DNA of 64,000 bases, taken from contig NC_079889.1 in assembly GCF_029227915.1 (NCBI RefSeq), positions 10,974,001 through 11,038,000 on the forward strand, written 5' to 3'. The notes beneath the pieces were generated by a model. The model saw only the letters and a list, made by a program, of their open reading frames with translations. It made no database searches and was not told the DNA's origin. Of the stretch, positions 28,526 through 61,442 are shown piece after piece (within the stretch, counting starts at the first letter, position 1; every line of letters starts with the position of its first letter). Made by a program: the position numbers and the translations under genes. Source of the DNA: Hydractinia symbiolongicarpus. Its lineage: Eukaryota > Cnidaria > Hydrozoa > Anthoathecata > Hydractiniidae.

Positions 28526-35398
<6,873 letters not shown>

Positions 35399-39635: not shown

Positions 39636-39665
39636 TTAAAGGGATCCCGAGGTGTCTACACAAGT
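39636..39665 (+). repeat. Left TTAA plus terminal inverted repeat of Kolobok element
   Basis: TTAA followed by 26 bases identical to the reverse complement of 44141-44166. The tip contains a GGGATCCC palindrome. Confidence 0.93.
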
Positions 39666-39929
39666 AATGCTTATGCAACTCAAAACATTCAAAGAAATAT
39701 AGTAGAGAAAGTCTTTTTAGCCAAATCAATATTATGTAGAAGATATATCCATGTTTACCTCGTAAAAACAGCAGCGCTCGCCTCCATTTTGTTGTGATTA
39801 TATTTCGGTAAAATTCAACTCTAGCGTCCAGTCTTTTTTCCATGGGTCAAAGTTGTGACGCGCCAGTTCAGTATCAAAAGCGCGCGAAATACATAATACA
39901 CAAGAAAATCGTTTCGTTAATGCAGCAAA

Positions 39930-40863
39930 ATGTCTGTAAATCCTTACCAGTTTGAACCACAAAAAAAGGTTGTTAACAATTCCAACAATGATAGTGATGA
40001 TAGTTGGGAAGATGTTCCCGACTGTCCAGAAGAAGTTAGAGAGCAAGAGCCTCGTATCAATCGCCTAGACGTCGAACCATCCTCATGGTGTAAATGTTCG
40101 TTTTGCTGTACGATGCCTGTGAGTCGTGAATGTTTATGCTGCACAGAAATCGACGAAATAAAGTTGAGATATATTTCTGGTGGTATGATTCTGTATAATT
40201 GATTAGTGTGCATATTTTGTTGAATGAATAACTAAGAAATTTTTATATGCTCGATCCCAGGACCTGTATGAGACAGGCCTCTAGATCTAGTTTGTAAATT
40301 TTCCCAATTTGTTTTTTTTCTAGATTATACATGCGTAACTCAGCATGAAAGTTTCGATGCTGTGTGTTTAAATCCACATGTTTTATGGACCGCTATGGTT
40401 AGTTTGAATGACAGGGAAGGTGCATGGCTACCTTGCATAGACAATATACCGAATCGGTAAAAATATATATTATTCTCAAACATAGATCTCATACAAAATG
40501 TTTCTCAACACGCTCAACAAAATACAAAACAACAAAATAACTCTATTTATATCTCAAAAAACTATACTCAACTTATGTACATGCAAAAATATACATTTAA
40601 TGAACCTCATCCCCAGGCCTTTTTCTCGTTTTAGGACTTATCGCTACGCAGCGTATCGACAGTTTTCTTGGTTTGTTTATACAAAACTTGGAAGACATGT
40701 TCGTAGAATCATTCCCGCTTGTGTGGTTTCAAAAATTAGAAAAAAATTTCCAGAAGAAAATGGAATTTATGTGAATTTCGATGGCGACGATGAGGGAGCA
40801 GACGGGATGTCTGAAATTATCCAGGCGTGGGAGTACATGACGAGCGAAGAACAGAACAGATAG
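39930..40863 (+). CDS. Stand-alone P2X7 ballast-domain protein carried by the transposon
   Basis: Three exons, 39930-40182, 40324-40456 and 40635-40863, join in phase to 204 residues. An acidic N-terminus (residues 20-48) precedes a Cys cluster (C54, C56, C59, C60, C68, C70, C71). Later come HVLWTAMVSL (about 103-112) and the hallmark block TYRYAAYRQF (130-139), then IIPACVVSKIRKKFP and an acidic C-terminus. These are the features of the zinc-binding cytoplasmic ballast domain of vertebrate P2X7 receptors, which also exists as channel-free proteins in other animals. No membrane helix is present, so it is not an ion channel. It lies inside the Kolobok element, tail-to-tail with the transposase, 118 bp apart. 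A role in transposition is possible but not shown. Intron 2 contains part of a CCTCGT-type repeat. Confidence 0.88.
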
Positions 40864-40981
40864 AGCCCTTAACACAAACGCCTATTCGACTGAATTTGTG
40901 AACTTAGAACCCAGGACGTTTTTCAAATTTGATAGAATTAAATCGCTTCCCCCAAAACCTTTTCTAAATTACATGTATATA

Positions 40982-43711
40982 TCATGTTTTAAATCTCGCC
41001 ATTTTCGTTTTCTTCTCAATTATTTCATCTCGGCTTGCTCTTTCTTTTGGTGCCATGATTCGCTTTCTCGACCTGTGTTTTTCACGTTTCGCCGCTCGTT
41101 TGTATGCACCTATCATCATGACCTTCAAGTATTCATAATTTTTTTTCTCAAATACTGTTCTAGCGATTAACTTCTTCGTTGGTTTGCGCCAAGCAATTTT
41201 GAAGCGTGGTTTCCCAAGCTGTTCACCAGATTGAATAATTGCTTGAGTTCGCTGGCAGTTGAAGTTATTATCCAAAGCAGCCAGATAAGCACCCATGACC
41301 ATATGATCGTGCTGAAAATGGTACTGCTTAGGAATATACTTCAACAAAAGGTTGTTAAAAACTTCCACATTCGTTGTGTGCACGACATCCATTAAATACT
41401 TCAAGTCATTTTTGAAGGACTTGTCTCTGACCATTGAAACTAAATATTGATGAGCTGGTGAACCCTCTAACAACCAGTTCTTACTTTTTTGTTCTTCTTT
41501 CGTAAGTGGTTCATGTTCACACCTTTTAAATTTTTTACATCCCGGCCATTCATGTTTGTTGATAGTGTGATAGATGATTGACTGAAATTTTTCATAGATA
41601 AGGTCAGCATCGCCATTGGCAGTTGTAACGCTCCACCAGAAGTGGTTCACTATTGAAGGTACCCACTCTAACAAACTTTCATGACTTTTCTTTTTTGCAA
41701 TTTTATTGATTTTTTTATTTATATTTTTGGCAACGTGCCATGGATCAAATTGATGTTTGATTGTGTTGAACTCAGGGTTCACTCGCATTAGTTTGCGTAT
41801 TTGTGTGTGTTTATCTGTGGCCACAACATCCACGTGAACATCATTATTTTGCAGCTGTCGTAAAATACGAACAAACCCTTCTTTTTCCATGGCGTTTGAA
41901 TTCTTTACTTCTGTTACAGGTACCACAACAGTGTCAATAACTTTCCCGGTAAGTGTTTCCATGAACGTATAATTGCAGTACTTTGCAGAATGGCCAGGGC
42001 TATCGCATCTTCCGTCACCAACGAGAACAACGACATCACGCGATTTCAACAATTCCACCATACGTTTACGTTCGACATTCCACTTTTGTCTAACTACGAG
42101 AAAGATGAAATCACGTCGAATCTGATAATACACACTGTCAGATATGAATTTCAAATTAATCAACCATGCAAACCTCGAAATTTTTGCAAACGGTACCCCT
42201 GAAAAAGCGATTGATGTTGAAATAAATAAATTTCCCAATCCGTTTAGTGAGCCGACCATTGGTTGACTTTTCCATTCGATATTGCATTCATTGAAGCAAT
42301 TAAGTTTTAAATGCAATTGGGAACCGGTATTCATAACTTCTCTGATTTCAGATTGATCAACAGGCCCACCACACCTTGGACACCGACCGAGCAATTCAAA
42401 TAACTTACTCTCGTAAACTAGAAATACACGTTCATTTCTAATTTTCTCCTTCCAACTGACACACTCATTCTGCGAAAGATCAGATTCTGTTGCATTCTCA
42501 TTCTGTGAAGGAACATAATCACTATCAGCAGCGTCTTCACCACATTCGTCACTCGAACTTTCTGATTTATCATCCAATTCCAATTCATTATTTACAACCT
42601 CCAATTCATTATTTACAACCTCCAATTCATTATTTACACCATCCAATTCATTATTTACACCATCCAATTTATTATTTACACCATCCAATTTATTATTTAC
42701 AATTTCAACAGCAGCACTAATGACATCCTCCGCTTCATCTAAACCACTACTCTGAACACCCAAATTGTTACAAAAATTGTCAGCCACCACAGTCTCTAAC
42801 ACGTCAGTCGACACACTCTCACGATTCTGACAAACAATTTTTACGCCATCACTTTCTAAAATACCTTTCTTGGGTATTGGAAATTGTACACCTTTCGATG
42901 GATTGTTCTTTTTGAACGTTTTTGTTTGGCACCTAATACTTCTGAAGTGTCTCATCCTCGTGAGGGTAGACGCATCTCGATAATACGTCGGTTCTGTTTG
43001 CACACTGACTGTGTTGTAAGTGATGTCTGTTTGAGTTGACATATTTCTAGAACCTTGAACATCAGAATCAGCAGGCGAGAGGCTTCCAAGACTGTCAAAA
43101 TCATCAACTGGAATTGTATAAGAGTCTTGTTTTTCTAATAAGTCTGAGACAATCTGAAATTAAAAGAAAATCAAATGATAAGGCCTGGGTACTAAGGTAT
43201 ATTATATTATATATGTCACACCTTTTTATAACACAAAATGTATATGATTGGAAGGAAGATAAATAAATTTACGTATCTATATTTATCATTTTTCTCAAGA
43301 AGTTTCATATTTGATATCTCGTAATTATAAGCTGAAGACTGGTCACCAAGTTGTTATTGCAAATCACAATACCTCAGCTTGTTCTTTGACTTTCAATCTT
43401 TTTGTGGATGATGCTCTCTCAGGTGTTGGCTCAATATGAGGGAATAAGGTGGGTATTGCCCCTGGCACCAGCTTCCGAATCATTTTTTTATTTTTATTTG
43501 CTGCATACTTTTGTTGCATATCAAAAGATTTGTCGAAACAGTCTTCGGTGAAATGGGTTGAACACAAGTACCGATATTTTGGCAGTGAGGTCCGTTTGAC
43601 TTTGGCAATCCATGTTTTATTTAATTCTGGATCCTTTGGAAATTTATGATACGATACATTATCATTTAAATTAGATTGATTGTGACATTTATAAGCACAA
43701 CAGTGCGGCAT
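40982..43711 (-). CDS. Kolobok transposase (THAP + Zn ribbon + DDE)
   Basis: Two exons, 43711-43373 and 43153-40982, join in phase 0 to 836 residues. Residues 1-90 form a THAP DNA-binding domain: MPHCCAYKCHN, HKFPKDPELNKTW, CSTHF, then the PGAIPTLFP end motif. A disordered linker holds six 7-residue repeats (about 266-307). A Cys pair CPRC begins at about 371, followed by an RNase H-like core with probable catalytic residues D493 (VGDGRCDSPGH), D560 (VVATDKH) and E710 (HTTNVEVFNN). HQFDPWHVAKNI is also typical of the family. The basic C-terminal tail could be a nuclear signal. Neither exon has a stop or frameshift, so the enzyme may be functional. The internal ATG at 43042 is not the start, because the open frame and a good acceptor continue upstream to the THAP exon. 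Confidence 0.93.
42580..42705 (-). repeat. Six 21-bp tandem repeats within the transposase gene
   Basis: Units of the CCAATTCATTATTTACAAC type repeat every 21 bases and encode NNKLDGV / NNELEVV heptads. L and V fall 3-4 apart, which allows a short coiled coil. Copies differ by a few bases. Confidence 0.85.
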
Positions 43712-44140
43712 GTTTACACGTCCTCACAGCATGCGCACCACGTGAAAAAGACCGCGAAACAAATCTGAGATGAGCATATTTTTCAGAATGAGTTTCGTGG
43801 TCGTACACATGATCATAAAAGACATTTTATACAGAGAATGTTGCATCAACTTATAAAATAGGAAGACGAATGCAGTGAAGCCAGAGGGATTGTTTATAGG
43901 CTAACAGCAATTTTTTCACTCTACGCAACTGTGACGTCATAATAACTAATTTGTGGTTTTGAGTAATGAAAATAAGTTCTTCACTATTTCGAAAAGAAGT
44001 TGGACAAGAAGCAATGGCGGGAAGGAAGTAAGCGAGCGAAGCACAAACTTTTGATTAACGTTATTTGTTGAATCGATGAGTTTGAACAAAATAAATAACA
44101 AAGGTATAAATAAAATCATGTACATTTTCATATAAACCAA

Positions 44141-44170
44141 ACTTGTGTAGACACCTCGGGATCCCTTTAA
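44141..44170 (-). repeat. Right terminal inverted repeat plus TTAA of Kolobok element
   Basis: Exact inverted copy of the left end, followed by the second TTAA. Outside it the LINE sequence resumes. Confidence 0.93.
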
Positions 44171-47964: not shown

Positions 47965-49571
47965 AGTTAAATGACAACAATGTGCTCATATTTCTTGTTT
48001 TCTTGTCTTAACCTTCGGTGGTAGGGAATCATAACGAGTATAGCAAAACAAAAAGAAAGCGGTCCTCCTTGATGTTAACCTCGTTAAACTGCGATAACGT
48101 TCTTATTTAATATCCACCTAAGCGGATTTTCGCGTCGTTTTACCCTCGCCCTTGTTAAATAACATCACATATATTAAATATCTACTCCGAGATTATAAGA
48201 AAGCAGGTTATGCGCCGGGTGTCCCGAATGTTTTCAGGAAGGGTCTGGGTTAACAAAAAACTTCAGAATTTAGTTGGCCAGAACATTATTCCATTCGACC
48301 TGCCTTCCCTGCTTATTAATACCGTAATAAATCGTACAAACGCTCTTGTTTACTGAATTTTTGACTTGGGCGCTTAGGTATGAGCACTTGACAACATATC
48401 ACGGTATTCGAAGTAAACCTTAGAAATTCAAGCAGGTATATTGGGAGGCGGGATGATTTATGCGTGTGACGTCAAAGTAGTATTTTCAAGAAAAAAACAT
48501 TAAAGAAGTTTAAAAAACTCAGAATTGTGATGGGTGAAGACCATAAAAACACCAACCTCGTTCCCAGGGCATTTTACCTTGTTGATAAAGCTGATAGATA
48601 GTTGGCCACTCCGAAATAATGGCTCAGGGGCCACAAGACCCTGGGGACGAGGATGTAAAAACACATAACGTTTAGCGCAAGTCTAATCCGTGCAATAAAA
48701 ATGTAATTCTTTAATCTTGATTGAAATTATACTGTGTTCAAATCGTCTCTCAATGGTATGTGGCGGAAATATTAGAGAACGTAGATACTGTACAAACTCG
48801 ATAGACATGCAACAACTGTGCATGCAGGTTTACCAAGAACCTCGATCCCAGGGACTAATTATAATACAGGGAGAGTGGTTGAAAGCTAGTTAAAAACGGT
48901 TAATAATGATTGCTATAGGCGTTGCTACGCGCTTAAACATGCATTTCGTCAGTGAAAGACTAAAAATGCGGGTTTTTCAGTCGACCTTGGCTAAAAATAA
49001 TCATATTTAGTCAAAGTCGATTGAATCTTATATTTTTTGGAAATTTTGAATTTTCTGAGGGGGTTCACACCTAAGGTACACGGTGAAATCACAATCCCTG
49101 TGCCTCTAGAAGTGCCACCAACATCCATCCTCTCCTGCACTTGCACACCATGCAGTAGCCGCTCTATGTTGTTTAACGGCTGCAATGTTTTTCATTTTTG
49201 TCCAGGATTTTCATACTTTACACTTTTTTTAAAAGCTTTTCTAAGTAAAATTTAGAAAGTTAATTTTCATCGGCAATATAACAATACTAAACTAATACGA
49301 AGTAAATGAGTATATATAAAAAAGTAAAAATATTTTCCATATAGCAAAACTATGCACTGCACGATAATTTTACATAATTTTACATAATTTTGTCCATCTT
49401 TGATTCCGGCGCAATTTAACGTCATATTTTTTATATTCGAAAATCGTGGATACTATGTTTGGCGTCATTTGACGTCATATTTATATACACCGTACCTCAA
49501 CTTAACAGAGTAACAATGTCGGTTAAACTGATATATCCAACATAAAGAAATGAGCGCACTGCGATTGTATT
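47965..49571. other. Interval between RPS11 and the K+ channel gene
   Basis: No gene was recognised. It holds a CCTCGT-type MITE (48553-48655) and a half-copy near 48838. The channel gene's promoter is expected in 49300-49570; nothing distinctive stands out there. Confidence 0.5.
48553..48655. mobile_element. CCTCGT-type MITE
   Basis: CAACCTCGTTCCCAGGGC and CCCTGGGGACGAGGATG are inverted ends. The interior GGCTCAGGGGCCACAAGACC matches the copy at 58233-58317. Confidence 0.8.
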
Positions 49572-52525
49572 ATGGAAAGTCATGACACCATAGAAGGAAC
49601 GAGCACGATATCTGCACTAAAGACTACTGTCACACCGCTTTATATAAATAGCCACCGAAAGCTTTACATTAACATTTGTGGTCAAAAGTTTGAGTTGCTA
49701 CGAGATACGATACTAAAGTATCCTTCTACGAGACTTGGAAAAATTGTTTTGGGAAAGAGATTGTCATGCTCAAAAGGTGTTGCATCAAGCACACTTTACG
49801 ATGGGTACGATAAAATTAAAAACGAGTTGTATTTCGAGCGGGACCCATCTTGTTTCCATTTAGTTATCGCATATTATGTCACAGGGCTACTTCATGTACC
49901 CCGACATGTTTGCATCGAAATGTTTCAGTATGAAATCGAATATTGGGGCATTCCCTTCAACCTGGAAAGCTGTTGCCAAGCCTACCACCAACAAGAATGG
50001 GACGTAGTTGAAACTATGAAGAAAACAAACAAATTATTCGAAGAACGAGCTAAAAAAGCTACCTTGGATGAATGCTTGGGATCGTCAATAAATTTACGGC
50101 CTGAAAGTCGTTGGAGTGTGTGGAAACGTAAAACATGGGATTTGTTCGAAAACCACGACTCATCAAAAGCTGCAACTGTATGTATAATCACAGTTTTTTC
50201 GTGTGCAACCTGTGTGTAGACTTAACCTCGATTCCAGGGCCTTTTGTTTCTTTTCGTATATCCGACAGCAAGCAGCGTCGGTGAGAGACAAATATACCTG
50301 GGGACAAAGTTGGTGTGAACTGTCAAAATTGTTTAGCTCTAGAAACAAATATTGTGAATTTCATGGCTGCGCCATTTTCAACTCTCAATATTATGGTGCC
50401 GTTACTTAGTGGTTATAACTCTTCCACTTTTGCGAGAAACCAAAGTTCGTTTTCCCTTGACGGTGATTCAATATAGGCGAGTGAATGTTACCCTAGCCTC
50501 GGGATAACCCAAGCCATGTGAGGGAGATTTGGGGAGATTGCACACTTTATGGGGCGTTGGATGTTGCAGGGAGTTGTCTGGTAAAGCGCGGGCCCTAATT
50601 GGGTCTGTTTAGCTACAAATGACCAATAAATACTGTAGGACTCCTTTATTTTGGTCCCTCCTGGAAATAATATGCAGGGTATATCCCTCGATATTTGTGA
50701 GGCTAGCCATGTAAAATACGCACATCTATCTATCTATTCGTGGAAAATTTCTTCTCGTGAAATATATCAAAATCAGCCATAGTTTTAACAAAAATTGATA
50801 CTTTTTGTATAAAATGGTTTGGAATTTAGGTATTAAAAGAGGATAGATGGATTAAAAAATAGGATAGGAATTATAAAAAAAATTCTGAATGTAAGATTAT
50901 TGTCTTTAGTCGTTTTTAAAAATTAATTCCTGCGAAAAAGGTTTGTAAGCACTTCATTTGCAAACCTTTTTTCGCGAGTTTGCCTTATCGCTTGGATTGT
51001 TGCATAATCAGTTCACGTTTGAAGTGTAAAAATATTAGTAGGCACAGCTCTTCAAGTATGCAATATTTAGGTAGTCAACCTCGTCTCCAGGGCTTTTTTC
51101 TCTTTCTAAAAATTTGGGAAGATAAGACAGTGCAACTGTACTTTTTAAACGAAGGAGAAAGAGGGTGGAGAGTGTAGCTTTGGCGAACACTAAACAAAAG
51201 GGTGGTGTTATTGAGAAGATTCAGCGTACTAAATGCGTCACGGAAAATTTTTCTTCGCGAACCTTCTTCACCCTATTTGTTGAAAATTTCCGTAAAGAAC
51301 GAACAAAGTTATTTCTCATGTCATGTCTTTCCCAAATAAGGAATTTAATCTCCAATCTCCAAGGCACGATGTTTACCTACTTCACTTCACAAGACAAACT
51401 TAAACAACACTCCGATGTCACAAAACCACTAGCAAGTGAGCAAAATAAAAAAAAATAAACACAAGCAACCTTGTCCCCCCTCCCCCGCCCCGCCTATTTC
51501 CCACCTAGTTGTGGAACTTGTCTTTATACTAGCGTTAGTTGCACTATAAAACTAGCTTGGATTATACAATTCATTTTCTTTTTATTCTATTTTAGGTTGT
51601 GTCTTTTATCTCATCCTTCATGGTCATAATCTCTACGATAACACTTTGTGTGAACACGCACCCGGACGTTCAAGTAACACTGTCCGATGGTACGAAAACG
51701 GATAACCCGAATCTCCTAATTATCGAGATCATTTGCATCTTTTGGTTCACACTGGAATATCTATCTCGAGCCATAGCATGTCCGAACAAAAAGCAATTTC
51801 TTAAGTCTGTTTTAAATGCCATCGACTTGTTAGCAATTATGCCATTCTATATCGGAATTATAATCGAAACTTTGCATGGAGGTGTCGACGAAAATTTTAC
51901 TGACGTACGTCGATTTGTGCAGGCGTTACGAATCTTCCGTATCGTTCGTATTTTTAAAGTAGCACGCCACTCGACCGGCTTGCAAGTGCTCGGTTACACC
52001 GTTAAAAATAGCAGCTCGGAACTAGGACTTTTATTTATGTTACTAATTATGGGTATGACGTTATTTTCCTGTCTTGTGTATTACGCAGAACAAGATGAAA
52101 AAGATACAAAATTCGAAAGTATCATTGCAGCGTTTTGGTGGGCTATCATCACCATGACAACAGTTGGTTATGGCGACATGTATCCGAAAACGCCGTTAGG
52201 TCAAATAATCGGCAGTATGTGTTGCGTGTCGGGAATTATATTCATAGCGTTACCTATTCCGACGATCGTTAGCAATTTTTCGGCGTTTTATAAAGATCAT
52301 ATGAACAAGGAAAAGTTAAGCAAACTCTATACAATGGCCGACGATGATGTTGAATCGGAAAATGGGAGTGATGTTATCATAAAGGATTCTAAGGATTCGC
52401 TTTTTCATGTAAACACAATCCCGCAACCGAAGCTCAGCATGGCTCAATTAGAACGACATGGACACTACCGACGCCGTATGTCACGCCTTAGCACTGTCGG
52501 AGCTTTACCAGAAGAAACCGTGTAA
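49572..52525 (+). CDS. Shab/Kv2-type voltage-gated potassium channel
   Basis: Two exons, 49572-50177 and 51596-52525, give 511 residues in phase 0. The N-terminal T1/BTB tetramerisation domain (about 30-140) has a Zn-binding pattern HVPRHVC...ESCC, as in non-Shaker Kv channels. Six membrane segments follow. S4 (about 307-325) reads RRFVQALRIFRIVRIFKVAR with regularly spaced Arg/Lys. The pore has TMTTVGYGDMYP (selectivity filter about 391-396) and S6 has ALPIPTIV (the gating PxP bend). ARHSTGLQVLG and the short S3-S4 link favour the Shab subfamily over Shaker, Shal and Shaw. It should carry delayed-rectifier K+ current in excitable cells. The C-terminus is short (about 80 residues after S6). 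The intron (1.4 kb) carries a SINE and MITE relics. Confidence 0.93.
50223..50312. mobile_element. CCTCGA/T-type MITE in channel intron
   Basis: AACCTCGATTCCAGGGCC at the left and CCTGGGGACAAAGTTGG at the right, with an inner ATCCGACAGC/GCGTCGG arm pair. It lies 45 bp inside the 5' splice site. Confidence 0.65.
50394..50738 (+). repeat. tRNA-derived SINE (family 1), diverged copy
   Basis: Same order of blocks as 44821-45184 but with more substitutions. The B box is degraded (AAAGTTCGTTTTC) and the tail is (ATCT)n. It lies in the K+ channel intron, sense to the gene. Confidence 0.88.
50931..50976. repeat. Short inverted repeat in channel intron
   Basis: TGCGAAAAAGGTTTG and CAAACCTTTTTTCGCG face each other across a short loop. 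It is a likely MITE remnant. Confidence 0.5.

Positions 52526-60955: not shown

Positions 60956-61442
<487 letters not shown>

Follow-up and report, generated by a model that had tools for sequence, protein, structure and literature searches.

A young family of KolX-bearing Kolobok transposons in Hydractinia symbiolongicarpus, with evidence for purifying selection on KolX

Examination of a 64-kb stretch of the genome of the colonial hydroid Hydractinia symbiolongicarpus (hereafter the window; C15:10974001-11038000 in the 480.9-Mb assembly, the one genome sampled in our genome-wide counts) revealed a 4,527-bp element that is almost certainly a Kolobok DNA transposon with a gene for the ballast-fold protein KolX. 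We consider it probable that the element belongs to a recently active Kolobok of the KolX-bearing (Kol0) kind, in which KolX works with the transposase. The features of the element are as follows.

39640-44166, whole element, 4,527 bp
39636-39639, no strand, left TTAA target site (from the sequence)
39640-39665, plus strand, left 26-bp terminal inverted repeat (from end comparison)
39930-40179, plus strand, KolX exon 1, zinc cysteine cluster (Pfam and translation)
40324-40456, plus strand, KolX exon 2 (Pfam and translation)
40635-40863, plus strand, KolX exon 3, YRYAAYRQF stretch and stop (Pfam and translation)
40982-43153, minus strand, transposase exon 2, DDE core, a 2.2-kb exon (Pfam and translation)
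43373-43711, minus strand, transposase exon 1, THAP domain (Pfam and translation)
44141-44166, minus strand, right 26-bp terminal inverted repeat (from end comparison)
44167-44170, no strand, right TTAA target site (from the sequence)

KolX was described by Kojima and Bao in 2022 as a ballast-fold protein encoded by Kolobok elements of the Kol0 lineage, clearly similar to P2X7 476-595 and having a fold with seven conserved cysteines; the lineage occurs in vertebrates, annelids, cnidarians and sponges, and a P2X4-like gene that fused with KolX was proposed as the origin of P2X7 (PMC9587614). Both the pairing of transposase with KolX and a transposon source for the P2X7 tail were thus already published, and the hydrozoan element is a new individual family. 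It shares with the published elements the TTAA target, the 5'-RR/YY-3' termini, the DDE transposase, the ballast-fold second gene and the cnidarian range, and differs from them not in kind but in representing one young hydrozoan family. What we add to that work is a selection test on KolX and a sample of one genome, which independently support the published view that an immune receptor took its ballast domain from a transposon gene. Our literature search traced KolX-bearing Kolobok elements to Kojima and Bao alone, and led only there for a link between the P2X7 ballast and a transposon. For Hydractinia together with Kolobok it gave one siphonophore genome paper. The stand-alone ballast domain had been described earlier, in the sections we draw on, by Rump et al. 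2020 (PMC7016195), the main text of which does not contain the word stem "transpos".

The ends of the element support its assignment to Kolobok. The terminal inverted repeats are identical at 26/26 bp and TTAA abuts both of their outer edges, bearing out to the base what the initial annotation had proposed. Kolobok elements are distinguished from piggyBac by 5'-RR/YY-3' termini at a TTAA target (PMC9587614); the termini here are AG...CT, i.e. 5'-RR and YY-3', and the TTAA duplication is present on both sides of the window element and in 12/13 of the copies described below. Within the element the KolX gene (plus strand) and the transposase gene (minus strand) are convergent.

The transposase gene (exons 43711-43373 and 43153-40982) encodes 836 aa with zero internal stops. 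Pfam matches include THAP (3.3e-19) and the Mutator-like transposase family PF20700 (2.2e-8), and the catalytic motifs GDGRCDSPGHSAKY, ATDKH, FDPWH and NVEVFN were found in the translation. The DDE triad with the C/DxxH motif that characterizes Kolobok is present, and its columns (D350, D417, D440/H443 and E567, in the numbering of the relative P0018) are invariant in 11 relatives. Kolobok transposases are described, in the part of that source we use, as having a THAP domain and an H2CH zinc finger (PMC6004289). Both occur here, and the H2CH columns H499, H504, C515 and H517 (P0018 numbering) are likewise invariant in the 11 relatives. P0018 itself, an H. symbiolongicarpus record, is 99% identical to the window transposase and is encoded letter-for-letter in copy L010 on C7. 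A piggyBac assignment was rejected, as Pfam gave Mutator-like, ISL3-type and THAP matches and no piggyBac family at E values up to 0.1. The KolobokP lineage was also rejected: it needs terminal direct repeats of approximately 450 or 660 bp, and we found only a 21-bp minisatellite and one weak 37-bp pair. The minisatellite lies at 42579-42702, inside transposase exon 2.

The predicted structure of the transposase (mean pLDDT 65) places the first D on a strand, the second D after another strand, and the E in a helix. A structure search with this model gave weak matches to retroviral integrases and to the P-element transposase, with TM scores of at most 0.28 among matches at E<=0.001. The P-element transposase, at ranks 2 and 3 of that search, resembles the Kolobok protein in its N-terminal THAP domain and DDE/RNase H core. 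It differs in having, as stated in the portions of the report we cite, an internal GTP-binding domain and 8-bp duplications (PMC7776569), whereas the element has a TTAA target and a separate KolX protein. The initial annotation had called the transposase gene intact. This holds for the open frame; intactness beyond the frame is in doubt because residue 465 is leucine in the window protein and proline in 11/11 relatives and in both other open copies, so that activity of the window transposase is not assured despite its open frame. The Kolobok-KolX identification is independent of the activity of this one copy.

The second gene has three exons separated by GT-AG introns and encodes 203 aa; its structure and its orientation toward the transposase were annotated correctly at the outset, and its length had been given as 204 residues. 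P2RX7_C was the sole Pfam family matched (1.3e-14) and the P2X channel domain is absent, unlike in a P2X7 receptor, where the channel is joined to the ballast. The protein matches a P2X7 chain by sequence at 1.7e-6, and cysteines C54, C56, C59, C68, C70, C71 and C87 are invariant in 6/6 aligned KolX proteins. KolX, the ballast fold and the seven cysteines that define Kol0 are thus all found, and it is on the presence of KolX that the putative Kol0 label of the element rests. The fold was modelled for P0001, a protein 60% identical to window KolX; confidence was low (mean pLDDT 57), and a PDB search with the model returned P2X7 chains at all of ranks 1-14 (E 3e-4 to 2.4e-3, TM approximately 0.4), the match after these having an E value of 1.9. 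KolX is therefore like the P2X7 ballast in sequence and modelled fold, and differs from the receptor in lacking the channel and in keeping 2/5 of the guanine-nucleotide contacts: as read from the alignment, rat R546 and R578 correspond to R131 and R163, and H547, R574 and K583 are missing. Scans of viral contigs and genome contigs for KolX found no relatives.

To find further copies we searched with the left 361 bp (the KolX end), a query that detects copies having that end. It located 13 genomic places, eight at 99-100% identity (family A, which includes the window copy) and five at 70-74% (family B). The left end with TTAA matches at 13/13 places and the right end with TTAA at 12/13, a recurrence beyond chance; the right end of L023 was not found within 9.4 kb. 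KolX is open across its 203 aa in 7/8 family A copies, the exception being L015, in which a deletion replaces the last residues; in L016 the open frame carries C70R, a change of a zinc cysteine. The transposase is open in 3/8 (window, L010 and L016). It is frameshifted in L014, carries deletions in L015 and L012, lacks the start of the gene in L023, and is interrupted in L022 by a 1.7-kb insertion in an exon, a foreign sequence with no long open frames. Family B has one full-length copy, L020, whose KolX contains one stop and whose transposase is broken. Deletions have shortened the other four (L017, L018, L019 and L021) to 1.9 kb; these resemble one another at 95.7-98.3%, have lost the transposase and have a broken KolX frame in 4/4. 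Because these short non-autonomous copies multiplied with broken KolX, the gene is dispensable in cis. Judged from the copies' sequences, this is how an element that was active recently, and on which short copies depend, usually looks.

Two observations had been named in advance as counting against KolX as a transposon gene. Full copies lacking the ballast gene were not seen among the 13 places found from the KolX end. Decay of the gene is present in part: it affects 4/4 short family B copies and, as one stop, L020, and it is not seen in 7/8 young copies. Within the young copies dN/dS is uninformative, each KolX having 0-1 replacement and 1-2 silent differences, except L015 with its deleted 3' end. 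Between subfamilies, we compared the window copy with L020, using our own script for the Nei-Gojobori method. The ratios are rough, as dS approaches saturation and L020 has itself decayed: for KolX, dN 0.106, dS 1.64, ratio 0.065; for the transposase, dN 0.195, dS 1.67, ratio 0.117. Divergence at aligned sites is 46% and 48% in the KolX introns, 58% in the intergenic stretch and 18-25% in the KolX exons. These values point to clear purifying selection on KolX, no weaker than that on the transposase, and supply the comparison between copies that had been proposed for the ballast gene. Where the transposases of the young copies differ from that of the window, most of the changes are replacements (5-10 versus 0-2 silent, five copies), and several occur in the window copy alone.

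We also took advantage of the PF20478 profile to ask how ballast sequences are distributed in the genome. Among 465 candidates, at least 150 scored matches lay above the curated cut-off as listed; these are matches rather than proven genes, and 150 is a lower bound because the 13 element copies are absent from it and split genes score low exon by exon. Of 14 control genomes, none (0/14) gave a match. For the best 30 of the 150 (L024-L053), flanks of 1.5 kb were searched by tblastn with 121 transposases (120 listed relatives and the window transposase) at E<=1e-6. A Kolobok-type transposase lies within 1.5 kb of 27/30 of these best loci and is convergent with the ballast sequence in 27/27. The 30 loci are not independent of one another: computed clustering with the strands separated gives seven groups, which we read as about five families. 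The flanks of L031, L032 and L051 gave no transposase match; L024, which resembles L031 and L032 at 96%, does adjoin a transposase, and the transposase match of the L024 group is distant (24-25% identity). A control tblastn over the 64-kb window returned one transposase-like stretch, the element itself. The recurrence across loci rejects chance adjacency of the two genes. The initial annotation had proposed that the ballast protein is a second transposon gene; recurrent pairing across copies and families and purifying selection uphold this, and the gene had already been named KolX. With 27/27 convergent orientation and constraint, the pairing indicates that KolX is a standing transposon gene rather than a one-off capture.

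That last alternative, in which the element picked up a host gene on one occasion and has since carried it as a passenger, was given some plausibility by the channel-less ballast proteins that, in the sections we draw on, are reported from many animals (PMC7016195). These stand-alone proteins (ZCD, nanor-like) share with KolX the zinc cysteines and the RYxAY and IPxC...IRxxFP stretches. They are there described as encoded by one or few (<10) genes per species, without transposons, in contrast to the at least 150 matches found here, 27 of the best 30 of which lie beside a transposase. The same pairing and layout recur in several other element families of the genome, KolX is constrained between subfamilies, and Kol0 elements of other animals carry KolX (PMC9587614). 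Copies with open KolX, constraint and recurrent convergent pairing together lead us to rule out a single capture, which we regard as hardly credible.

What KolX does for the element is less certain. The constraint, the fixed pairing and the convergent arrangement of the genes speak for a direct partner of the transposase, and an accessory role in transposition is the most likely function, to which we give an even chance; the initial annotation had suggested that this role might resemble that of the Myb-like protein of Harbinger elements. By analogy with the family, the THAP domain would bind the element ends and the DDE core would move the element between TTAA sites; KolX, a small zinc-cysteine protein of ballast fold, may work with the transposase, whether in pairing the ends, joining the target or delivering the complex, and deletion copies could receive it in trans. 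It is possible, though we consider it less likely, that KolX has its effect outside the DNA reaction, on the host or on expression, by countering silencing or by tuning how much transposase there is or how active it is. Strong constraint shows that KolX matters to the element and is silent on how, and the portions of the ballast-fold literature we consulted describe no catalytic or DNA-binding role; convergent pairing with the transposase fits both readings, however, and nothing favours regulation. We think it improbable that KolX is a guanine-nucleotide-dependent cofactor, an in trans counterpart of the GTP-binding domain of the P-element transposase. The P2X7 ballast binds guanine nucleotide (PMC7016195) and the P-element THAP-DDE transposase needs GTP for end pairing and positioning (PMC7776569), as stated in the parts of these reports we rely on, but three of the five rat P2X7 contacts are missing in window KolX and the P-element structural match is weak (TM 0.19-0.28). 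Just as speculative is a scheme in which KolX, dependent on both zinc and guanine nucleotide, would position the ends in trans; the ballast of P2X7 would then descend from transposition machinery, and its nucleotide pocket would have started out as a switch for transposition. The young copies in this cnidarian offer material for probing what KolX does.

A loose N-terminal PYxFEP-like motif is present in 65/74 ballast proteins that have the cysteine cluster and RYxAY, and the strict form in 62/128 examined; we suggest it as a candidate docking motif. Six loci (L024-L027, L031 and L032) have a single open ballast frame of 167-173 aa, with a transposase beside 4/6, and the motif is absent from the frame shown. 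They may constitute a separate lineage.

A tree of ballast domains was built from 76 rows: the 74 of 128 proteins with the cysteine cluster and RYxAY, the window protein and one P2X7 stretch, the relatives being drawn partly from 120 listed of 393. Window KolX pairs with P0001 (100/99), and the two next join Oculina, Montipora and P0009 from Porites (99/91). The P2X7 row sits on a branch of 2.81 with no settled position, and the tree is uninformative on P2X7 origin. The Oculina patagonica KolX P0004 and transposase P0027 come from contigs of equal length (64437903) and are probably on one chromosome; the contigs of P0193 and P0113 also agree in length (3588), which could be chance.

At least one cnidarian gene record named "P2X purinoceptor 7-like" (P0149, from H. 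symbiolongicarpus) adjoins a Kolobok transposase. It is encoded at 100% identity by L028:1444-2055 (G000:C4), convergent with the Kolobok-type transposase, so the record probably describes a gene of a transposon. Other ballast loci also deserve mention. L037 and L038 each have TTAA and a different terminal inverted repeat enclosing about 1.87 kb. Equal-score matches at G000:C6:11542348, 11547338 and 11552328 follow one another at intervals of exactly 4,990 bp and may form a tandem array of elements. On G000:C7, three pairs of matches at about 22.09-22.10 Mb and 32.68-32.69 Mb are mirrored in order and strand, which may reflect an inverted duplication of large size or an artefact of the assembly.

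An Rfam search of the 64-kb window gave no match. Elsewhere in the window, open frames at 49554-52525 resemble a voltage-gated potassium channel (TTVGYGDMYP), positions 31585-31822 hold a perfect 118-bp tandem duplication, and positions 60956-61442 hold a perfect GACA array of 487 bp.
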